Origin: Kordia aestuariivivens | GTDB taxonomy: Bacteria > Bacteroidota > Bacteroidia > Flavobacteriales > Flavobacteriaceae | Assembly: GCF_014397005.1 (NCBI RefSeq) | Contig: NZ_JACGWS010000013.1 | Coordinates: 62,001 to 126,000 of the forward strand | Reading direction: 5' to 3' | DNA length: 64,000 bases | Shown here: in pieces, positions 43,525 through 62,089 of the stretch | Layout: each line of letters begins with the position of its first letter | Numbering within the stretch: position 1 is the first letter of the stretch | Position numbers and translations under genes: made by a program | Notes under the pieces: generated by a model | The model's input: only the letters and a program-made list of their open reading frames with translations | Database searches by the model: none | Told to the model about the DNA's origin: nothing

Positions 43525-45120
43525 ATGAATAGTTCAAATCCATTCAAAAATTTAAAAGCGGATTTTCCCGCAAGTATTGTCGTTTTCTTCGTTGCACTTC
43601 CACTCTGTTTAGGAATTGCTTTGGCCAGTGGCGCACCTTTATTTTCAGGACTAATTGCTGGAATTGTTGGTGGTATTGTCGTTGGTGCTATAAGTGGCTC
43701 ACAAGTTGGAGTTAGTGGGCCAGCCGCAGGTTTAGCAGCAATTGTCCTAGTTGCCATTACTTCGCTAGGAAGTTTCGAAAACTTCTTAGTTGCCGTGGTA
43801 CTTGGTGGTGTTATTCAAATACTTTTTGGTGTTTTAAAATTCGGAATTATTGGATATTTTTTCCCTTCTTCTGTAATTAAAGGAATGCTAACAGGTATTG
43901 GACTCATTATTATCTTAAAACAAATTCCACACTTTTTCGGATACGATTCAAATACTGAAGGAGAACTTCCCCTTTTCCAATCAGACAGTCAAAATACATT
44001 TTTAGACATTTTCGACTCGGTCAATCACATCAGTCCTGGAGCAACGATCATTGCAGTTATTGGATTGGCAATTTTAATTCTTTGGAATACCGTTTTATCC
44101 AAAAAAGGAAAAATATTTCAATTGGTACAAGGACCATTGGTTGCCGTAGTTATAGGTATTATTTACTTTTTATTAACACAAGGAAATGTGGCATATGGAA
44201 TTTCTGCAGATCACTTAGTAAAAGTGCCTGTACCAGATGATTTTAGTTCTTTTCTCGGACAGTTTAGCTTTCCGAATTTTTCTGCCATCGGAAATCCTGC
44301 TATATGGGTAACAGCTTTTACAATTGCCTTAGTTGCAAGTTTAGAAACCTTATTATGTGTGGAAGCAACTGATAAACTAGATCCACGAAAACGTGTAACA
44401 CCAACAAACAAAGAATTATTTGCACAAGGAACAGGAAACATTCTTTCTGGATTAATTGGTGGATTGCCAATTACACAAGTAATTGTTAGAAGTTCAGCAA
44501 ACATTCAATCTGGTGGAAAAACAAAAATGTCTGCGATTATTCACGGTTTCTTATTATTAATTTCTGTGATTTTGATTCCAACATTATTAAACATGATTCC
44601 ACTTTCAGTATTGGCTGCAGTTTTATTAATTGTAGGATATAAATTAGCAAAACCTGCCTTATTCAAGCAAATGTATAAAGCTGGTTGGAAACAATTTATT
44701 CCATTTACAATTACTGTTTTAGGAATTGTTTTTATCGATTTATTATGGGGAATTGGATTAGGACTTGCCGTTGGTATTGTCGTAATATTAATTAAGAGTT
44801 TCCAAAATTCTCACTTCTTGCATATTGAAGATAAAAGTAACGGAAAACATAGAATTAAAATGACTCTTGCCGAAGAAGTAACATTCTTTAACAAAGGAGC
44901 TATTTTAAAAGAATTAGACAGTTTACCAAGAGATACATTCTTAGAATTAGATGTACGTAAAACACGTTTCTTGGACAATGATATTATAGAAATATTAGAA
45001 GATTTTTCAGAAAAAGCACGCAACAGAAACATTGATATTAAATTGATTTCAGAACGTGGAACTGTGGAAAATCCAACTAGTTTTCTTGAATTTTTTCAAC
45101 TTAGACCAAAAAGCGCTTAA
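43525..45120 (+). CDS. SulP family anion transporter (putative bicarbonate uptake)
   Basis: A 531-aa protein with about 11-14 membrane helices starting LKADFPASIVVFFVALPLCL and ending with a STAS domain (about 440-525; TFLELDVRKTRFLDNDIIEI). SulP proteins carry sulfate, bicarbonate or other anions. The adjacent carbonic anhydrase gene points to bicarbonate, as in BicA-type systems; substrate is not proven by sequence. A universal stress protein gene lies between. No promoter was recognised in the 174-bp gap upstream. Confidence 0.88.
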   Translation: MNSSNPFKNLKADFPASIVVFFVALPLCLGIALASGAPLFSGLIAGIVGGIVVGAISGSQVGVSGPAAGLAAIVLVAITSLGSFENFLVAVVLGGVIQILFGVLKFGIIGYFFPSSVIKGMLTGIGLIIILKQIPHFFGYDSNTEGELPLFQSDSQNTFLDIFDSVNHISPGATIIAVIGLAILILWNTVLSKKGKIFQLVQGPLVAVVIGIIYFLLTQGNVAYGISADHLVKVPVPDDFSSFLGQFSFPNFSAIGNPAIWVTAFTIALVASLETLLCVEATDKLDPRKRVTPTNKELFAQGTGNILSGLIGGLPITQVIVRSSANIQSGGKTKMSAIIHGFLLLISVILIPTLLNMIPLSVLAAVLLIVGYKLAKPALFKQMYKAGWKQFIPFTITVLGIVFIDLLWGIGLGLAVGIVVILIKSFQNSHFLHIEDKSNGKHRIKMTLAEEVTFFNKGAILKELDSLPRDTFLELDVRKTRFLDNDIIEILEDFSEKARNRNIDIKLISERGTVENPTSFLEFFQLRPKSA

Positions 45121-45148
45121 ACACACTAACCACTAAAAACTTAAAATC

Positions 45149-45967
45149 ATGAACACACCAAAATATAAATTACTAGTATTAACAGATCTTTCTGAAGCAT
45201 GTAACACAGCTCTGGAAAACGCGGTAAATCTTTCAAAAATCATCAATGGAAGCGTTGAAGTTTTTCATGTATTGAAACCTTCTGACATAGCAGAATACGA
45301 AAATCAATTATCTGCCATGCGTTCTATTGATGAAGAACGTGTTAATAAGAAAGCAAAACTAAAAACATTGGTTCGTGAAATTTCTAAAAAGACGGGCGTT
45401 ACCATTACGGCAAGTTCCATTTTAGGAAATTTGAAAGACGAAACCATGGAACGCATTGAAGCGGTAAAACCTGATATTGTTGTATTAGGAAAACGCACAC
45501 AAAAATTGATCAACTTTTTAGGTGACGGATTCACAAAATTTATTTTAGACACTTTTAATGGTTCTGTATTAATTTCTGGAAAAGACAAAATAATGAGTCC
45601 ATCGGAAGCAATGTCCATAGGTTTATTCAATACAACTCCAGAAGAATTATCATTAGAACTCACAAAAGATTTGCGCAAGCATACTAAAAACCCTATCAAA
45701 CGTTTTAAAGTACGTACGGATGCTGAAAAAGCAGAAGCAATTGCTGAAAACGTAATAACGTATGAGTTTGAAAACGGAAGCAATACGATGAATAATATCG
45801 CATCGTATGTTGCCAAAAATAATATTGGACTCTTATGTATGAATCCGCACACGAAGAAAAGTACTGGACCATTCCAAGGACTGAGATCTAACATTAAACA
45901 AGCGATTCAAAAAATCAACGTGCCAATTTTAATCGTGAATAACCAAGCATCAATTCAATTACAATAA
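45149..45967 (+). CDS. Universal stress protein (tandem domains)
   Basis: A 272-aa protein with an N-terminal UspA domain (YKLLVLTDLSEACNTALENA ... IVVLGKRTQKL) and a second, more divergent domain ending NVPILIVNNQASIQLQ. ATP-binding glycines are only partly kept. It is encoded between SulP and carbonic anhydrase, 28 bp and 11 bp from them, so it is probably part of the same operon and may modulate transport. Confidence 0.88.
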   Translation: MNTPKYKLLVLTDLSEACNTALENAVNLSKIINGSVEVFHVLKPSDIAEYENQLSAMRSIDEERVNKKAKLKTLVREISKKTGVTITASSILGNLKDETMERIEAVKPDIVVLGKRTQKLINFLGDGFTKFILDTFNGSVLISGKDKIMSPSEAMSIGLFNTTPEELSLELTKDLRKHTKNPIKRFKVRTDAEKAEAIAENVITYEFENGSNTMNNIASYVAKNNIGLLCMNPHTKKSTGPFQGLRSNIKQAIQKINVPILIVNNQASIQLQ

Positions 45968-45978
45968 ATACAAAAGCT

Positions 45979-46605
45979 ATGAAAGCACATACAAAAGAAA
46001 CACAAGAGATAATGACTCCAGAAACATCTTTACAAGCGTTAAAAGATGGAAACGAACGATTTATAAACAACACACAAGTAACACGTGATTTACTCGATCA
46101 GGTTTCAGATACAAGCACAGGACAATATCCGTTTGCTACTATACTGAGCTGTATTGATTCTAGAGTTTCTTCTGAATTAATTTTTGATCAAGGAATCGGA
46201 GACATTTTCAGCGTTCGTATTGCAGGAAACTTTGTCAATGAAGACATCTTAGGAAGCATGGAATTTGCGTGCAAACTTGCCGGAACAAAATTAGTGCTTG
46301 TTTTAGGACATACGGCATGTGGCGCTGTAAAAGGTGCTTGCGATCATGCAAGACTTGGAAACCTAACTGCATTAATCAACAAAATAGAACCTGCGGTAGA
46401 AGCAGTTACTGAACCAACAGACGAAAGTTTACGCAACTCAGGAAATATAGAATTCGTAAACAATGTTGCGGTTAAAAATGTAGAAATGACCATTGAAAAC
46501 ATTCGCAATCAAAGTCCTGTGTTAGCCGAACAAGAACGCAACGGAGAAATCAGCATTGTCGGTGGAATGTATGATATTAATAATGGTAAAGTAACGTTTT
46601 TATAG
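45979..46605 (+). CDS. Beta-class carbonic anhydrase
   Basis: A 208-aa protein with the zinc ligands Cys58, His111 and Cys114 (ILSCIDSRVSSELIFDQ and VLGHTACGAVKGAC) and the Asp60-Arg62 dyad. It hydrates CO2 reversibly. Paired with the SulP transporter, it would equilibrate imported bicarbonate with CO2 for carboxylases. Length is typical. Confidence 0.96.
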   Translation: MKAHTKETQEIMTPETSLQALKDGNERFINNTQVTRDLLDQVSDTSTGQYPFATILSCIDSRVSSELIFDQGIGDIFSVRIAGNFVNEDILGSMEFACKLAGTKLVLVLGHTACGAVKGACDHARLGNLTALINKIEPAVEAVTEPTDESLRNSGNIEFVNNVAVKNVEMTIENIRNQSPVLAEQERNGEISIVGGMYDINNGKVTFL

Positions 46606-46607
46606 GA

Positions 46608-47303
46608 ATGAATTTTAAACAGAAAATAAGTGCCATTTTACTAACACTTTTCATGATTCCACTATTAAGTTGGAGTCAAGACGAAACTGGAAATTGGTTG
46701 ATGTATTTTGGAACCAACAAAATCAGTGAAAAATTTAGTATTCATACGGAAGTTCAATTTCGTAATCACACGATTTTTCCTAACAATACGGAACAATGGT
46801 TGTTGCGAACTGGATTAAACTATCACTTTGCCAAAAATGCGTTTGCAACTGCTGGATATGCTTATATCGGAAGTTTTGTATACGATAGCGAACGTGATAG
46901 TCCAGAAACGGAAGAACATCGTATTTGGCAACAATTGATTACCACAAATAATCTAGGACGCGTAAAATTTGAACATCGATACAGAGCTGAACAACGTTGG
47001 GTTGAAGACGATTTTAAAACACGTTTTCGTTACCGATTGATGCTTTTTATTCCCGTAAACAAACCCGTAATAGAAACAGGAACATTTTTCTTTGGTGTCT
47101 ACAATGAAATCTTTGTCAACGGAGAAGAAGAATTTTTCGACAGAAATCGATTGTACGGCGGTATCGGATATCAATTAAACAAAAACCTAAACTTACAAAC
47201 TGGAATGCTATACCAGCGTGTAAGTACAACAGGAAAAGGATATTTACAATTTAGTGTGATTTACAATACAGACTTACGAAAAAAAGAAAAAGAAAAAAAT
47301 TAG
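46608..47303 (+). CDS. DUF2490 domain outer-membrane protein
   Basis: A 231-aa exported protein (signal peptide ending LLSWSQ) of the DUF2490 family, a small beta-barrel type: WLMYFGTNKISEKFSIHTEV, RTGLNYHFAKNAFATAGYAY, FEHRYRAEQRWV. It begins 2 bp after the carbonic anhydrase stop, so it belongs to the operon. A strong hairpin terminator follows. It could be a pore, but that is speculation. Confidence 0.88.
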   Translation: MNFKQKISAILLTLFMIPLLSWSQDETGNWLMYFGTNKISEKFSIHTEVQFRNHTIFPNNTEQWLLRTGLNYHFAKNAFATAGYAYIGSFVYDSERDSPETEEHRIWQQLITTNNLGRVKFEHRYRAEQRWVEDDFKTRFRYRLMLFIPVNKPVIETGTFFFGVYNEIFVNGEEEFFDRNRLYGGIGYQLNKNLNLQTGMLYQRVSTTGKGYLQFSVIYNTDLRKKEKEKN

Positions 47304-47851: not shown

Positions 47852-47895
47852 GTGACTTTTGTTACTGAGCAACGCTGTGGAAAACAATACTTTTG
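47852..47895 (+). promoter_or_regulatory. Operator 1 (GTGAC-TTTT-GTTAC) and -7 box of the Crp/Fnr gene
   Basis: The palindrome lies at 47852-47865 with one mismatch to the other sites (GTGAC). The -7 box TACTTTTG (47888-47895) is a perfect TAnnTTTG; its end is 30 nt beyond the palindrome. The regulator may therefore control its own gene. Confidence 0.75.
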
Positions 47896-47946
47896 CTTTC
47901 TAAATACTTTCTTTACCTTTAAAGACGAAAAACTGCTAATCCAATT

Positions 47947-48582
47947 ATGATTCAGGAACTCAAAAACAGCTACGGACATCTATTTGAAGATGAACTACTG
48001 AATGAAATAGCGCAAGTAGGAACTTTTAAAGAAGTCCCAGCTGGCTTTACGCTGATGTCCATTGGCGATTATGTACGTGGAATGCCGTTGCTAGTTTCTG
48101 GAGCCATCAAAATCATGCGAGAAGACAAAGAAGGAGACGAATTACTACTCTACTATTTAGAACAAGGAGAAACCTGCTCTATGACGATGAACTGTTGCAT
48201 GGGACAAACCAAAAGTGAAATTAAAGCAGTTGCTGAAAAAGACACAAAACTCATCATGGTTCCTGTTCAAAAAATGGAAGAGTGGACTGCAAAATACAAA
48301 TCCTGGCGAAATTTTGTATTCCAAAGCTATCATACACGTTTAAACGAAGTATTACACATTTTGGATAGTGTGGCTTTTGAAAAAATGGATCAGCGTTTAC
48401 TCAACTATTTAAAAGAAAAAATTCGAGTAAACAAAACAAATACAATTCACAACACGCACCAAGAAATCGCGTATGATTTACACACTTCCAGAGTTGTAAT
48501 TTCACGACTTCTAAAAAAATTAGAACAAATGGGGCGCATAGAATTACACAGAAATCATATTAAAATCATAAATTTAGTCTGA
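47947..48582 (+). CDS. Crp/Fnr family regulator with Cys cluster (putative sulfane-sulfur sensor)
   Basis: A 211-aa protein: N-terminal cyclic-nucleotide-binding fold (about 15-125), long dimer helix, C-terminal winged helix with recognition part NTHQEIAYDLHTSRVVISRL (about 169-188). Cys77, Cys83 and Cys84 (GETCSMTMNCCMG) lie where CRP binds its ligand; there is no N-terminal Fnr-type Fe-S cysteine cluster. It heads a run of sulfur genes that all carry the same palindrome upstream. I infer that it senses sulfide/persulfide or thiosulfate through these cysteines and activates those genes. Confidence 0.85.
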   Translation: MIQELKNSYGHLFEDELLNEIAQVGTFKEVPAGFTLMSIGDYVRGMPLLVSGAIKIMREDKEGDELLLYYLEQGETCSMTMNCCMGQTKSEIKAVAEKDTKLIMVPVQKMEEWTAKYKSWRNFVFQSYHTRLNEVLHILDSVAFEKMDQRLLNYLKEKIRVNKTNTIHNTHQEIAYDLHTSRVVISRLLKKLEQMGRIELHRNHIKIINLV

Positions 48583-48586
48583 TTAT

Positions 48587-48630
48587 GTAACTTTTGTTAC
48601 TGTGTGATCATTCCATAAAATGGTACTTTG
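48587..48630 (+). promoter_or_regulatory. Operator 2 (GTAAC-TTTT-GTTAC) and -7 box of tauE
   Basis: Perfect 14-bp palindrome at 48587-48600, four bases after the regulator stop codon. The -7-like box GTACTTTG ends at 48630, 30 nt beyond the palindrome. Confidence 0.82.
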
Positions 48631-48653
48631 CACTAACAAATATCTGAACAACT

Positions 48654-49451
48654 ATGGAAATACTTGGCTATGTTAGTGCCTTGATTATTGGAATTTCATT
48701 AGGACTTATTGGCGGCGGCGGCTCTATACTAGCCGTTCCTGTACTTGCATATCTATTCTCTGTAAACGAAAAAGTAGCTACTGCATACTCACTATTCATC
48801 GTGGGAACAAGTGCGCTAGTTGGCGGTTTAAAGCAGCACTTAAAAGGCTATGTAGATTGGCGTACTGCTGTCGTATTCGGAATTCCTGCCATTATTGGTG
48901 TCACCTTAGTTCGTTACTATGTCGTTCCTGCATTACCAGATACACTATTCACTATTGGAAATTTTGACTTCACACGCCGAATGGGAATGTTTGGTTTATT
49001 TGCTGTATTAATGTTTCCCGCTGCATTTTCGATGCTAAAAGAACGTAAAGAAAAAGTTGCCGAAGGAACGGTTCATTACAACTATCCATTAATATTAATT
49101 GAAGGATTAGTTGTCGGTGCTATTACAGGTATGATTGGTGCTGGCGGCGGATTCTTAATAATTCCTGCTTTGGTTTTACTAGCAAATGTAGACATGAAAA
49201 TTGCCGTTGGAACTTCACTCATTATCATTGCGTTTAAATCATTACTAGGTTTCTTTTTGGGCGATGCACTAACGATGGAAATCGATTGGGAATTTTTAGC
49301 AATATTCACGAGTATTTCATTGGTTGGAATCTTCATCGGAAGCTATCTAGGGAACTTTATTGACGGAAAAAAGCTCAAAAAAGGATTTGGCTATTTCATC
49401 TTTATCATGGCAATCTTTATCTTCTACATGGAATTCTTCGTGAAACAATAA
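48654..49451 (+). CDS. TauE/SafE family sulfite/organosulfonate exporter
   Basis: A 265-aa membrane protein with about eight helices and the two family signatures SLGLIGGGGSILAVPVLAYL and ITGMIGAGGGFLIIPALVLL. The family moves sulfite, sulfonates or sulfoacetate across the inner membrane. In flavobacteria a TauE gene next to an MBL-rhodanese is a usual partner and may export sulfite made by persulfide oxidation. It carries operator 2. Confidence 0.9.
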   Translation: MEILGYVSALIIGISLGLIGGGGSILAVPVLAYLFSVNEKVATAYSLFIVGTSALVGGLKQHLKGYVDWRTAVVFGIPAIIGVTLVRYYVVPALPDTLFTIGNFDFTRRMGMFGLFAVLMFPAAFSMLKERKEKVAEGTVHYNYPLILIEGLVVGAITGMIGAGGGFLIIPALVLLANVDMKIAVGTSLIIIAFKSLLGFFLGDALTMEIDWEFLAIFTSISLVGIFIGSYLGNFIDGKKLKKGFGYFIFIMAIFIFYMEFFVKQ

Positions 49452-49552
49452 TTCCCTCAAAAAAAGTACACACAGTGGATTCTTTAAATTTCACAAAAGC
49501 TATATTTAGCTCAAATTAAATAAAAAACTCACTCAAAAAAACTCACGCTACT

Positions 49553-49596
49553 GTAACAAAAGTTACTGTGTACGTAGCAAAAACAGCCTAATTTTG
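49553..49596 (+). promoter_or_regulatory. Operator 3 (GTAAC-AAAA-GTTAC) and -7 box of the MBL-rhodanese gene
   Basis: Perfect palindrome at 49553-49566, followed by TGTGTA. The -7 box TAATTTTG (49589-49596) is a perfect consensus match; its end is 30 nt beyond the palindrome. Confidence 0.85.
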
Positions 49597-49622
49597 TTCC
49601 TGTAATTATAAAATAAGAAATC

Positions 49623-51029
49623 ATGAACATTGAACAAATATATACAGGCTGTTTAGCACAAGGTGCTTATTATATAGAAAGTAATGGCGAAGTTGCTATT
49701 ATTGATCCATTACGTGAAGTACAACCATATTTAGATAAAGCTACAAAGCAAAACGCAAAAATTAAATATATTTTTGAAACACATTTTCATGCAGATTTTG
49801 TAAGCGGACACGTAACACTTGCCAAAAAAACAGGCGCGCCAATTATATACGGACCAAATGCAACACCATCTTTTGACGCTATCATTGCGGAAGACAATCA
49901 AGAATTCAAATTAGGAAATATTACAATTATTGCATTGCATACGCCTGGTCACACGATGGAAAGTACCACGTATTTATTACGTGATGAAAACGGAAAAGAT
50001 CATGCTATCTTCAGTGGTGACACCTTATTTTTAGGCGATGTTGGAAGACCCGATTTGGCTCAAAAACTTGGAAAGATTACTATAGACGATTTAGCAGGTT
50101 ATCTATATGATAGCTTACGCGAAAAAATCATGCCGTTAGCAGATGATGTCATTGTATATCCTGCACATGGAGCGGGTTCTGCATGCGGAAAAAACATGAT
50201 GAAAGAAACCATTGATACGTTGGGAAATCAGAAGCAAATGAACTACGCGTTACGCGCTGATATGACCAAAGAAGAATTCATCAAAGAAGTGACAGACGGA
50301 TTGCTTCCACCACCAAGTTATTTCCCAGACAATGTAAAACTCAACAAAGAAGGTTATGCTGATATTTCCGAAGTATTACAACGTGGAACTCAAGCATTAA
50401 CTCCAGAAGTATTTGAAACCATTGCCAACGAAACTGGGGCTATTGTGTTGGATGTTCGCCATCAAGATGAATTTGTAAAAGGACACATTCCACGTGCTAT
50501 TTTTATAGGATTGGATGGAAGTTTCGCTCCTTGGGTTGGCGCATTAATTGCTGACATTCAACAACCTATATTATTAGTAACACCAGAAGGTCGCGAAAAA
50601 GAAGCTGTAACACGCTTATCAAGAGTTGGATTTGATCATACCTTAGGTTATTTAGAAGGCGGATTTGACGCTTGGAAAAAAGCTGCCAAAGAATACGATA
50701 CAATGAGTTCAATTTCAACGCTAACTTTTCAAGAAGTATTCAATAAAAACAGTCAAGTTTTTGATGTACGTAAAGAAAGTGAATTCAAATCTGAACACAT
50801 TCTAGATGCAAAAAATACACCTTTAGATTTCCTAAATAATCACTTAGCCGAATTTCCGAATGACCAACCGTTTTACGTGCATTGCGCAGGCGGTTACAGA
50901 AGTGTCATTGCGGCATCTATCTTAAAAAGTAGAGGAATTCATAATATGATCAATGTAGAAGGTGGTTTTAAAGCCATCAAGGAAACGAATATTCCTGTTT
51001 CTGCATACGTTTGCCCATCAACGTTATAA
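49623..51029 (+). CDS. Metallo-beta-lactamase fold persulfide dioxygenase-like protein with two rhodanese domains
   Basis: A 468-aa fusion. Residues 1-240 are an ETHE1/BlaC-like MBL domain with THFHADFVSGH (His54, His56, Asp58, His63), HTPGHTMES and GDTLFLGDVGRPD. Two rhodanese domains follow: the first (about 250-350) has PEGREKEA in place of the active Cys loop and is probably inactive; the second (about 365-465) has the active loop HCAGGYRS. It likely oxidises glutathione or protein persulfide to sulfite and handles sulfane sulfur. It carries operator 3. Confidence 0.93.
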   Translation: MNIEQIYTGCLAQGAYYIESNGEVAIIDPLREVQPYLDKATKQNAKIKYIFETHFHADFVSGHVTLAKKTGAPIIYGPNATPSFDAIIAEDNQEFKLGNITIIALHTPGHTMESTTYLLRDENGKDHAIFSGDTLFLGDVGRPDLAQKLGKITIDDLAGYLYDSLREKIMPLADDVIVYPAHGAGSACGKNMMKETIDTLGNQKQMNYALRADMTKEEFIKEVTDGLLPPPSYFPDNVKLNKEGYADISEVLQRGTQALTPEVFETIANETGAIVLDVRHQDEFVKGHIPRAIFIGLDGSFAPWVGALIADIQQPILLVTPEGREKEAVTRLSRVGFDHTLGYLEGGFDAWKKAAKEYDTMSSISTLTFQEVFNKNSQVFDVRKESEFKSEHILDAKNTPLDFLNNHLAEFPNDQPFYVHCAGGYRSVIAASILKSRGIHNMINVEGGFKAIKETNIPVSAYVCPSTL

Positions 51030-51044
51030 AAATAAAAGCGTTCT

Positions 51045-51088
51045 GTAACTTATGTTACTGTGTAGGATTTGTAACACACTTATTTTCG
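51045..51088 (+). promoter_or_regulatory. Operator 4 (GTAAC-TTAT-GTTAC) and -7 box of the rhodanese gene
   Basis: Perfect half-sites at 51045-51058, followed by TGTGTA. TATTTTCG (51081-51088) is one mismatch from the -7 consensus; its end is 30 nt beyond the palindrome. Confidence 0.82.
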
Positions 51089-51119
51089 CTTCAAATTAAA
51101 AACCCCTAAATACGAATAT

Positions 51120-51464
51120 ATGTCATTTTTCACCTCTTTATTTGGCGACAAAACCAAATCAACTGATCAAATTGAAATTTTAGATGTTGACACATTTAAC
51201 AAATTAATTACTGCTGAAAATGTACAACTCATTGATGTTCGAACTGGTTTTGAATACAAAGCTGGACATATTCAAAACGCTGTGAATATTGACTTTTTTG
51301 ATCGTGCAAATTTTAATGAAAACTTTTCAAGTTTCGACAGAGAAAAACCGATCTATCTATATTGCAGATCAGGAAATCGAAGTCAACGAGCGGCAAAAAA
51401 ACTACTTCAAATTGGGTTCAAAAAAATATACGATCTAAAAGGCGGTTATAAGGCTTGGAAGTAA
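51120..51464 (+). CDS. Single-domain rhodanese (sulfurtransferase)
   Basis: A 114-aa protein with one rhodanese fold: VQLIDVRTGFEYKAGHIQNA and the active-site loop YCRSGNRSQRAAK with the persulfide-forming Cys. It moves sulfane sulfur between donors and acceptors. No signal peptide. It carries operator 4 and follows the MBL-rhodanese gene; separate operators suggest each gene is its own unit. Confidence 0.92.
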   Translation: MSFFTSLFGDKTKSTDQIEILDVDTFNKLITAENVQLIDVRTGFEYKAGHIQNAVNIDFFDRANFNENFSSFDREKPIYLYCRSGNRSQRAAKKLLQIGFKKIYDLKGGYKAWK

Positions 51465-51542
51465 TTTTATTTAATGTGAGTTCGATATAAGAATTATCTA
51501 AATTAAATTTGAACTAACGGAGTAAATAGTTAATTCAAACTT

Positions 51543-51606
51543 CATTTTCTTTGCCCGTACAAAGAATACTGAATCAAGTCAGCACAGGCTTCAACAAAAG
51601 AAAATG
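51543..51606. repeat. Nested palindromes downstream of the rhodanese gene
   Basis: TTCTTTG-CCCGTA-CAAAGAA (51547-51566) is followed by ACTGAATCAAGTCAGCA, a shortened CAAG-type palindrome. CATTTTCTTT (51543-51552) and AAAGAAAATG (51597-51606) form outer arms. It may serve as a bidirectional terminator between convergent genes. Confidence 0.55.
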
Positions 51607-51629
51607 TGCTTAGAAAAAAATATTGACTA

Positions 51630-52226
51630 TTATTTGGAAAGCACCAACGTTGACATACTTCGTAAGTCGTTAACGTTGGTGCTTTTTACGAGTTCTAAAA
51701 ATGAAAGCTGATGTGTTTCCATGAGTTCGTTTAGTAGACTTCGAGTTAATAAAAAACGTTCAGATTCATCTCTCAGGAAATAAACTCCATCTTGTAAATG
51801 CGTTGCTTTTCCTTCTACACCAATATCGGAAGTCATTCGGATAAACAAACTTCCTTCCTTTTTCAATACACGGACCAATTCTGCAAATAATTGTTTAAAA
51901 TGTGTTTCGCTTCTCGCGAAATGCAATACGGCATTACAAATAATATGATGAAATGTATTTTCTGGAAACGGAATTTTTTCTATTGGTGCGACTTTAAAAT
52001 TAGCTTCAAGTTCAGGATAGCGGTTTTTTAAATTTTCAATGTGAGTTGAATTAGTATCTATTGCATAAAACTGAAATCCACTTTCGTGAAAATACTGCAA
52101 GTTTCGTCCACTTCCGCAACCTGCATCCAATACAAGATCGTTCGCTTGATAGCGACCTTTTAAAATTTGATCGATCAAATAAATATCTGCATTGCCTAAA
52201 ATTTCAATCAACTGTTTTTGTTTCAT
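51630..52226 (-). CDS. Class I SAM-dependent methyltransferase
   Basis: A 198-aa protein of the Methyltransf_11 type: motif I LVLDAGCGSGRNLQYF, acidic residue FYAIDTNSTHI, and post-I IICNAVLHFARSETHFKQLF. It may methylate a small molecule. It points away from the sulfur genes and shares the intergenic region of operator 5 (palindrome 66 bp upstream of its start), so it may belong to the same regulon; that is only inference. Confidence 0.85.
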   Translation of the reverse strand: MKQKQLIEILGNADIYLIDQILKGRYQANDLVLDAGCGSGRNLQYFHESGFQFYAIDTNSTHIENLKNRYPELEANFKVAPIEKIPFPENTFHHIICNAVLHFARSETHFKQLFAELVRVLKKEGSLFIRMTSDIGVEGKATHLQDGVYFLRDESERFLLTRSLLNELMETHQLSFLELVKSTNVNDLRSMSTLVLSK

Positions 52227-52291
52227 CAGGATAAAAATAAAACACTTTTAGCATACAAACACGTGTTCATCATAGAACTTTTTAAGACTTT

Positions 52292-52335
52292 GTAACAAAA
52301 GTTACTTCCGTTTTGAATAGATTTTCTTTTTTTTG
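52292..52335 (+). promoter_or_regulatory. Operator 5 (GTAAC-AAAA-GTTAC) and -7 region of the YeeE pair
   Basis: Perfect palindrome at 52292-52305. The T-rich -7 position TTTTTTTG (52328-52335) has one mismatch (second position) to TAnnTTTG; its end is 30 nt beyond the palindrome. It lies between the YeeE gene and the divergent methyltransferase. Confidence 0.75.
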
Positions 52336-52351
52336 CTTAAAAATTATAAAT

Positions 52352-52909
52352 ATGGAATGGATTTATGAACCGTGGCCGTGGTATATTTCGGGCTTTATGA
52401 TTGCTTTGGTGATGTTTTTATTAATCATGGTTGGAAAAAACTTTGGAATGTCGGGAAATCTCCGAACGATTTGTACCATCTGCGGAAGCGGAAAGAAGGT
52501 TGATTTTTTTCGATTCGATTGGAAATCTCAACGCTGGAATTTAACAGTAGTTTTAGGTGCCATTATTGGCGGATTCATCGCGCATCAATTTTTAACGGTT
52601 GAAGCAACAGTTGCGTTAAATCCGGATACAGTTTCAGATTTACAATTGCTAGGATTTGAAAATGCTGGAAAAACGTATATGCCAGAAGAATTATTTTCAT
52701 CTGCCGTTTTTACAGATCCAAAAAACATCATTTTATTAGTCATCGGTGGATTTTTAGTAGGTTTTGGTGCTCGCTACGCTGGCGGATGTACTTCCGGACA
52801 TGCCATTTCAGGATTGAGCAATTTGCAACTTCCTTCTTTAATTGCCGTTATTGGTTTTTTCATTGGCGGATTGACCATGATTCATTTAATTTTCCCCTTA
52901 CTTTTTTAA
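52352..52909 (+). CDS. YeeE/YedE-type thiosulfate transport protein, first half
   Basis: 185 aa from ATG 52352, giving [20 protein letters not shown]; the frame is open 13 codons further up. It has about five helices and the Cys motif [20 protein letters not shown], the DUF395/YeeE signature thought to relay thiosulfate by Cys hydrogen bonding. A Cys pair [11 protein letters not shown] is also present. It forms a pair with the next gene 3 bp downstream; together they equal one full YeeE. Confidence 0.9.
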
Positions 52910-52912
52910 GCT

Positions 52913-53329
52913 ATGAAAAGAACACTTATCTATTTATTGATCGGGATTCTGTTTGGAATCATCATGTTTAAGTCAGAAGCCGCTTCTTGGTTTCGTATTT
53001 ACGAAATGTTCAAGTTTGAAGCTTTCCACATGTATGGAATTATTGGAACTGCAGTTTTCTTAGGAGTTGTCACGATTGCACTCATTAAACGTTTTAAAAT
53101 AAAATCATTTTACGGCGAACAAGTTCATTTTCCTCCGAAACAGAAAAGTTTTGCGCGGTATGCAATTGGCGGAATTCTATTTGGATTGGGTTGGGCGTTG
53201 GCGGGCGCATGTCCTGGACCGATGTTTACGTTACTTGGCGCAGGATTTTTACCAATTATCATTGTGATTGTTGCTTCGCTTTTAGGAACCTTTGTATATG
53301 GTTTGTTGAGAGATAAGTTGCCGCATTAA
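52913..53329 (+). CDS. YeeE/YedE-type transport protein, second half (DUF6691)
   Basis: A 138-aa membrane protein with about four helices and the second YeeE Cys motif GLGWALAGACPGPMFTLLGA. It starts 3 bp after the first half, so both are made from one message and probably assemble into one thiosulfate or sulfane-sulfur uptake pore. It closes the sulfur gene set. Confidence 0.9.
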   Translation: MKRTLIYLLIGILFGIIMFKSEAASWFRIYEMFKFEAFHMYGIIGTAVFLGVVTIALIKRFKIKSFYGEQVHFPPKQKSFARYAIGGILFGLGWALAGACPGPMFTLLGAGFLPIIIVIVASLLGTFVYGLLRDKLPH

Positions 53330-53644
53330 CGGATTGTTGGTATCGCTTCGCTTTTAGAAACGGCTGCGCCTTTGGTATCGCTTCGCTGTTAGATTCACTT
53401 CACTTCGACAAGCTCAGTGTGAACGCTCTTGGTATTTTAGTTGGTTTGCTTTGTCATTCCTGCGAAGGCAGGAATCCATTTCATTTTTTGGCACGAGTTA
53501 CATTTGTTTTAGCAACTTTATGTGACCTTGAAGCAAGTTCAAGGTGACGAAATCTTCAAACAGATCTAAAAATCTAACTTTCTAATAAAGTCCAATAATC
53601 TAAATGAGTCCAACAAATCTAACATGTCTAAAAATCCAAGAAGT
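53330..53644. repeat. 315-bp gene-free stretch made of repeats
   Basis: It contains two GGTATCGCTTCGCT words (53338-53390), a TTCACTTCGACAAGCTCAGTGTGAA palindrome arms pair (about 53395-53420), ATTCCTGCGAAGGCAGGAAT (about 53456-53475), ACCTTGAAGCAAGTTCAAGGT (about 53525-53545), and a run of degenerate words of the type AAATCTAA/AAGTCCAA (53560-53645) that extends into the end of the response regulator gene. No coding sequence or RNA gene was seen. Confidence 0.7.
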
Positions 53645-61969: not shown

Positions 61970-62089
61970 ATGTTTTTACACGGAACTTTTGATCTTGGGC
62001 TCTCCGATTACCTTTTTTGGGTTGGTATGATTTTAATAGTGATCATCATTATCGCCGTCTTAAAAGCACTGTTTACTACTAAAAAGTAA
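61970..62089 (+). CDS. Putative small membrane protein (39 aa)
   Basis: From ATG 61970 the frame reads MFLHGTFDLGLSDYLFWVGM, then ILIVIIIIAVLKALFTTKK and stops. It has one transmembrane helix with a basic end. A perfect -7 box TACTTTTG (61934-61941) lies 29 nt upstream, which supports expression. No Shine-Dalgarno motif is visible, as is usual in Bacteroidota. Confidence 0.5.
   Translation: MFLHGTFDLGLSDYLFWVGMILIVIIIIAVLKALFTTKK

Follow-up and report, generated by a model that had tools for sequence, protein, structure and literature searches.

What controls a row of sulfur genes in Kordia aestuariivivens, and why does one palindrome recur ahead of them? The row lies at 47947–53329 of the stretch analysed here (the window, 64 kb; positions 62001–126000 of contig C5, NZ_JACGWS010000013.1, in our genome G000). 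It encodes a Crp/Fnr-type regulator, a TauE/SafE exporter, a metallo-β-lactamase (MBL) protein with two rhodanese domains, a single rhodanese and a split YeeE/YedE pair. By sequence, the set has its match in operons known to detoxify sulfide (CstB-like persulfide dioxygenase, rhodanese, TauE, YeeE); a minus-strand methyltransferase gene (51630–52226) breaks the row and was excluded from the set. Sequence comparison establishes the palindromic site, its spacing from a −7 promoter box, its gene set, its conservation and its co-occurrence with the regulator, which very likely binds the palindrome as its operator and activates the genes as a sulfur regulon. The putative operators, the boxes (scored against the six defined letters of TAnnTTTG) and the genes are as follows, in window coordinates.

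47852–47865, plus strand: operator 1, GTGACTTTTGTTAC, upstream of the regulator gene
47888–47895, plus strand: −7 box TACTTTTG, 6/6, its end 30 nt past operator 1
47947–48582, plus strand: Crp/Fnr-type regulator, 211 amino acids; cysteines 77, 83 and 84; recognition helix SRVVISR
48587–48600, plus strand: operator 2, GTAACTTTTGTTAC, upstream of tauE
48623–48630, plus strand: −7 box GTACTTTG, 4/6, TTTG retained
48654–49451, plus strand: TauE/SafE-family exporter (PF01925)
49553–49566, plus strand: operator 3, GTAACAAAAGTTAC, upstream of the MBL-rhodanese gene
49589–49596, plus strand: −7 box TAATTTTG, 6/6
49623–51029, plus strand: MBL plus two rhodanese domains, CstB-like persulfide dioxygenase/sulfurtransferase
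51045–51058, plus strand: operator 4, GTAACTTATGTTAC, upstream of the rhodanese gene
51081–51088, plus strand: −7 box TATTTTCG, 5/6
51120–51464, plus strand: single-domain rhodanese (PF00581)
52292–52305, plus strand: operator 5, GTAACAAAAGTTAC, upstream of the YeeE pair
52328–52335, plus strand: −7 box TTTTTTTG, 5/6
52352–52909, plus strand: YeeE/YedE half (Sulf_transp, PF04143); ATG at 52352, the open reading frame (ORF) list beginning at an upstream TTG
52913–53329, plus strand: second YeeE/YedE half (DUF6691), with no operator of its own

Matches to GTRACNNNNGTYAC (GTRAC-N4-GTYAC) occur at these five places in the 64 kb and nowhere else, against a chance expectation of 0.10 and a maximum of 1 in 100 shuffles; the first-pass annotation of this DNA had picked out the same five. 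At each of them the −7 box ends exactly 30 nt past the palindrome (+30), with scores of 6, 4, 6, 5 and 5 of 6, in agreement with the earlier description of two perfect boxes, two with one mismatch and one with TTTG kept. With the best offset between 8 and 60 freely chosen for each set, 20 000 random sets of five 60-mers from nearby intergenic DNA gave a score sum of 23 at most, below the observed 26. Enrichment of the palindrome across the genome was considered and rejected: the K. aestuariivivens genome holds 20 places compared with 30 for a reversed control pattern, and the sites are instead clustered at this locus. The corresponding pairs of counts are 19 and 30 in K. algicida, 17 and 29 in K. 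jejudonensis, 17 and 11 in Maribacter orientalis and 20 and 16 in C. baltica. Ten of the 15 places outside the cluster fall within ORFs of at least 100 amino acids and three are intergenic with no box at +30 on either strand; the remaining two, ahead of the DUF983 and FNR-type genes described below, fit the palindrome-plus-box pattern.

In Flavobacterium psychrophilum the TAnnTTTG box was mapped to −12 to −5 (PMC9723704). If the box holds this same position in Kordia, all five palindrome centres would lie at −41.5, with leaders of 12 to 47 nt, and the calculation bears out the class II centre near −41.5 that had been proposed. A −33 TTTG box has been described for Bacteroides fragilis and was not found in F. 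johnsoniae (PMC7366714); such a box would overlap the proximal half-site, where the logo from relatives reads AC and then a weak TG, with no TTTG. As read from sequence, the geometry of the sites is that of class II activator architecture. The regulator would bind GTAAC-N4-GTTAC, which in the CRP register is TGTAA-N6-TTACA, centred at −41.5, and would act as a class II activator of sigma-A promoters that retain the TAnnTTTG −7 box, the proximal operator half sitting at the place of a −33 box. The half-site had been described as differing from those of classic CRP and Fnr. One base is indeed changed (TGTAA for TGTGA), as in the GTA-N8-TAC of NtcA, but the register is that of CRP and the site is not foreign to the superfamily.

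The first-pass annotation had proposed a scan of related genomes, and in these the sites recur ahead of the same gene set at the same distance. A regulator homologue at E 1e-15 or better is present in 126 of 149 sampled genomes, the closest named relatives being those of K. algicida (92%) and K. jejudonensis (89%). Both species contain counterparts of all five sites, with the palindrome of operator 1 at the same place, while N4 and most of the spacer have diverged. A first set of 80 regions around regulator homologues, hand-picked as most of the closest plus a sample of the more distant, contains 161 palindromes, of which 134 have a box (5/6 or better) at exactly +30, 83 of them perfect; the other offsets from 8 to 60 each account for at most 12, and the reversed motif occurs three times. 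The second set, 80 named loci reduced to 73 by removal of seven duplicates of first-set regions, yields 211 palindromes. For 188 of these the box stands at +30 (control, 6), and 71 of the 73 loci have at least one palindrome. When pooled, the 153 regulator-centred regions give 370 distinct contexts, 320 of which have a box (5/6 or better) at exactly +30, compared with at most 12 boxed contexts in 200 shuffles.

In the logo of these 320 sites the half-site letters G, T, A and C are imposed by the pattern searched for. Among the free positions, the variable half-site base is A94/G5 and T90/C9 and the letter immediately 5′ of the palindrome is T85, with an AT-rich N4 and a nearly random spacer ahead of the box. 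A downstream TGTGT(A/G), suggested earlier as a shared element, is not conserved across the pooled sites: the palindrome is followed by weak T, G and T (0.38, 0.29 and 0.29 bits) and then by 0.09. A motif-free count of inverted repeats (gaps 2–8 and 10) was made over 330 distinct 150-nt regions upstream of tauE, MBL-rhodanese, rhodanese and YeeE genes. GTAAC with gap 4 came first by a wide margin (172 regions); counts of 33, 14 and 26 seen with gaps 2 and 6 come from these sites read in a shifted register, GTGAC with gap 4 occurs in 12, and every remaining inverted repeat is in 12 or fewer. We consider the observation made in the window to be confirmed as real, and stronger than could be seen from the window by itself.

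The genes that follow the sites were counted by the presence of a palindrome within 250 nt upstream. It precedes 93 of 129 MBL-rhodanese genes (86 boxed), 67 of 90 tauE genes (64 boxed), 26 of 49 YeeE halves (20 boxed) and 22 of 62 rhodanese genes (21 boxed), and none of 48 homologues of the second YeeE half, which serve as an internal negative control. The site ahead of the regulator gene stands in the Kordia window but is not general, being found in just 18 of 157 regulator genes (17 boxed), and autoregulation as a general rule was rejected for this reason. Other first genes behind sites, assigned by Pfam, encode SQR-like flavoproteins, 1-Cys peroxiredoxin, TolC-type, cytochrome c-like, HMA, YgaP-type, DUF983, NrfD-type, DUF2202, SulP-STAS, thioredoxin, cytochrome bd subunit I and ferritin-like proteins. 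The SQR-like target of one relative matches mitochondrial SQOR (2e-104); the K. aestuariivivens SQR matches lie at the end of contig C12, where the promoter could not be read, and K. algicida and K. jejudonensis gave no SQR match.

This list is biased to neighbours of the regulator, around which the regions were chosen. As a check on the bias, six whole genomes were scanned with the palindrome and the letters were read at a chosen part of the places: the 119 distinct oriented sites include 29 that lie outside coding sequence and have a box at +29 to +31, and most of these precede the kinds of gene listed. Two of the 29 (L350, L363) are without a gene within 300 nt, and some sites precede genes that are unplaced or named by eye (L366, L367; a sulfite-oxidase-like protein, L344). 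In M. orientalis a single 25-kb island with genes for sulfur, cytochromes and export (L366/L367, G342:C17:277428–302907) accounts for 13 of the 17 palindromes. The Flavobacteriaceae regulon would be one of sulfide and sulfane-sulfur detoxification (CstB-like persulfide dioxygenase-rhodanese, rhodanese, TauE, YeeE/YedE), to which other genera would add SQR, peroxiredoxin, cytochrome bd, SulP, TolC-type and DUF983 proteins. The taxa whose sqr and pdo transcripts rose in NaHS-treated sediment include Bacteroidota (PMC12345210).

Two sites outside the window deserve mention. A DUF983 gene at G000:C5:136426 (L049:3001), 10.4 kb past the window end, is preceded by GTGACAAAAGTTAC with a 6/6 box at +29. 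The site recurs at +30 in K. algicida (L359) and K. jejudonensis (L333), and in other genera DUF983 sites adjoin the regulator or sit in the sulfur island (L061, L064, L367); this uncharacterized protein looks like a member of the sulfur regulon. An FNR-type gene (MSNCEQC...) at G000:C10:46758 (L050/L380) and its K. algicida counterpart (L360) have GTAACAAAGGTTAC with a 5/6 box at +30. Judged from these sites in two Kordia genomes, the sulfur regulator may be in cross-talk with a regulator of the oxygen type. Effector sets that overlap with the sulfur genes found here are sulfide-induced in Acinetobacter under FisR and, in a fisR mutant, under BigR (PMC7315123).

The tie between the sites and this particular regulator is supported, in sequence terms, by synteny, phylogenetic profile, co-variation of the recognition helix and the different helices of the other HTH_Crp_2 proteins. 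The earlier inference that this neighbouring protein acts on the sites as an activator is largely supported. The sites follow the regulator locus. Of 23 genomes with no regulator hit, the 20 listed were searched; an MBL-rhodanese gene is present in 16, giving 17 rows, and with one partial match of unreadable upstream region (L295) left out the site precedes the gene in none of the 16 readable rows. Sixteen regulator-bearing genomes, chosen because the MBL-rhodanese gene was either missing from the regulator region or present there without a site, have the site in 13 of 25 rows, or 12 of 24 once L322, a duplicate of L306, is removed; seven of these rows are paralogues at about 35%. For rows of at least 60% identity the counts are 0 of 8 in regulator-less and 11 of 17 in regulator-bearing genomes, the former being mostly small and more distant.

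Residue 183 of the regulator, aligned to what we take to be E181 of CRP, is V in 94 regions and E in 26. Oriented boxed sites read GTAAC/GTTAC in 150 of 170 cases with V183 and in 1 of 18 with E183, a G half being present in 17 of the 18 sites of E-type regulators; regions with any G half number 15 of 74 for the V type and 15 of 15 for the E type. Contact positions of the recognition helix are also given in PMC2633013. The p-value of 4e-13 for this association was rejected as independent evidence, since the tree has two changes and some palindromes boxed on both sides were counted in both orientations. That tree, built without the helix columns, places the two changes among site-bearing rows, with one to two independent pairs. 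We regard the V/E co-variation as no more than suggestive of binding by the regulator.

What signal might such a regulator read? The protein scores above the cut-off for PF00027 (cNMP-binding) and for a C-terminal HTH_Crp_2 domain (PF13545), which places it in the Crp/Fnr superfamily. Its AlphaFold model (pLDDT 88) has the CRP/NtcA/FNR fold, with 3dv8, CRP, FNR and NtcA heading the Foldseek list, while an NCBIfam search gave no equivalog above cut-off (CRP, 47 of 266 bits; NtcA, 42.1 of 244.95). Of the residues that we take to be the cAMP contacts of CRP, E72 aligns with M and R82 with K, and S83 is kept; their place is occupied by G-D/E-T-C77-x-M-T-x-x-C83-C84. These are the only three cysteines in the protein, which has no FNR-type N-terminal set, and in homologues C77 is conserved in 81 of 81, C83 in 79 of 81 and C84 in 77 of 81, as befits candidate cysteines of a thiol-based reactive-sulfur sensor. 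The known regulators CstR, SqrR and FisR act via cysteine pairs or triads (PMC9774590). With three cysteines where CRP binds cAMP, a thiol or sulfane-sulfur switch suggests itself; reactive sulfur would be the likeliest signal, detected through cysteine 77 and cysteines 83/84. Our tentative proposal, plausible rather than probable, is of a Crp/Fnr-family sulfane-sulfur sensor in which the pocket has become a C77/C83/C84 switch and contact with persulfide or polysulfide leads to class II activation of a sulfide oxidation and export regulon in most Flavobacteriaceae.

From these features we infer binding, activation and the signal, and several observations weigh against doing so. The box is absent at +30 for 27 of 161 palindromes in the first set and 23 of 211 in the second, and 20 of 94 V-type and 11 of 26 E-type regions yielded no boxed site. 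Of the 24 regulator-bearing rows, 12 have an MBL-rhodanese gene without a site. A G half occurs in 20 of 170 V-type sites, nine of them GTGAC-N4-GTCAC, and the co-variation of helix and half-site comes down to roughly two residue changes along the tree, a number that does not suffice for a sign test. Model confidence is lowest in the cysteine loop (pLDDT under 50 for residues 80–84), which is consistent with a flexible switch loop but is no proof of one. Lastly, a sister subfamily retains C77 without C83/C84 and yet adjoins sulfur genes (L277, L279, L280), so the three-cysteine switch is not obligatory. Members of this subfamily (these three and L283) carry GESCIMSFLGG, in which a single cysteine is conserved, and have tauE, MBL-rhodanese or YeeE genes as neighbours; L280 is the only one of the four regions with a palindrome.

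The same operator and regulator may instead serve another signal, with cysteines 77, 83 and 84 holding an Fe–S cluster, heme or a metal, or sensing redox state, NO or a small thiol, the sulfur genes being one output. We consider this a serious possibility, though somewhat less plausible than a sulfane-sulfur switch. Cysteines of Crp/Fnr proteins often bind Fe–S (as in FNR) or heme, and the site-linked genes elsewhere include those for cytochrome bd, cytochrome c, peroxiredoxin and a ferritin-like protein. Two members of the Crp family, Vfr and PrfA, are activated by glutathione (PMC7315123). The cysteine complement described above is nevertheless not of the FNR type, and sulfur genes are the commonest targets, though among regions chosen around the regulator.

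That the regulator represses, or both represses and activates, is unlikely. A site that overlaps −35 can also obstruct polymerase. The positions of repressor operators usually differ, however, and here a single centre at −41.5 in 320 of 370 contexts, a −7 box that is kept and no TTTG at −33 form the class II pattern. The case for repression draws on the reactive-sulfur regulators CstR and SqrR/BigR, which are repressors (PMC9774590, PMC7315123). Binding of the sites by another Crp/Fnr paralogue is a good deal less likely still. The genome encodes four further HTH_Crp_2 proteins, and the same palindrome precedes the FNR-type gene; the paralogue helices (TATETAIR, TATESAIR, IATETLIR, TSRPTLNI) nevertheless differ from SRVVISR and are without SRVVxSR, and the sites track the neighbourhood and genomes of the present regulator. 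Chance or shared ancestry without function is scarcely credible: the relatedness of neighbouring genomes means that sites are not independent, and the search pattern dictates the half-sites, yet N4 and most of the spacer vary from one of the three Kordia to another while the palindrome and box position stay, and little comes from shuffles, the reversed motif or any other inverted repeat.

Comparison of an activator of this kind with known systems indicates partial likeness to several. NtcA, the cyanobacterial nitrogen regulator of the Crp/Fnr superfamily, has the consensus GTA-N8-TAC, which four of the five window sites share, and it too has V at the CRP E181 position (PDB alignment) and a class II position. 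It governs nitrogen genes and senses 2-oxoglutarate, in contrast to the sulfur genes found here, and the regulator falls well short of its NCBIfam cut-off (bit scores above). Escherichia coli CRP shares the fold (1zrf, Foldseek 5e-15), the operator register and the SR and R positions of the recognition helix; it differs in TGTGA for TGTAA, in E72/R82 where the regulator has M/K and, again, in score. The best structural and sequence match, the Crp/Fnr protein EUBREC_1222 (PDB entry 3dv8), has cysteines aligned with C77 and C83 but an E-type REVITR helix, and its entry title states no function. The MBL-rhodanese of the window matches 3tp9, 3r2u (presumably S. aureus CstB) and ETHE1. CstB belongs to the effector set of the S. 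aureus cst operon, and the effector genes of CstR/cst and SqrR/BigR overlap with those here (persulfide dioxygenase, TauE, SQR, YeeE). Cysteine-based sensing would be a further likeness, but these are repressors of the CsoR and ArsR families rather than Crp/Fnr activators (PMC9774590, PMC7315123). FisR of Cupriavidus and Acinetobacter activates an SQR-PDO-TauE operon, with three conserved cysteines in the Cupriavidus protein, but is a sigma-54 AAA+ activator unrelated in fold and promoter type. Crp of A. baumannii is persulfidated in sulfide-treated cells; it is a close relative of E. coli Crp, and the paper does not link it to a sulfide operon and describes the effect of persulfidation as unknown (PMC7315123).

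Two features of the surrounding window lie outside this comparison. A SulP-type permease, a universal stress protein, a carbonic anhydrase and a DUF2490 protein follow in succession at 43525–47303, a row that resembles a bicarbonate-uptake operon and has no upstream palindrome. The intergenic stretch 53330–53644 contains short recurring phrases (cgcttcgct, caagctcagtgtgaacgctcttggt) that by eye look like dispersed genomic repeats.

Both class II Crp/Fnr regulation and regulons for sulfide detoxification are of known kinds; what is new is their union, the family-wide operator code and the cysteine-modified pocket. In the openly accessible literature searched we found no report of this regulator and no regulator of sulfide detoxification in Flavobacteriaceae. 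The dedicated reactive-sulfur regulators named in the available part of a 2022 review are CsoR-type CstR, ArsR-type SqrR/BigR and sigma-54 FisR, with no dedicated Crp/Fnr sensor among them (PMC9774590). If the present interpretation is correct, a Crp/Fnr member would join this group. The Flavobacteriaceae are abundant marine and sediment heterotrophs, and a single Crp/Fnr activator with a single operator grammar would explain sulfide handling in many of their genera. The palindrome, the 30 nt and the end of the −7 box would then constitute a readable regulatory code in a phylum with unusual promoters.

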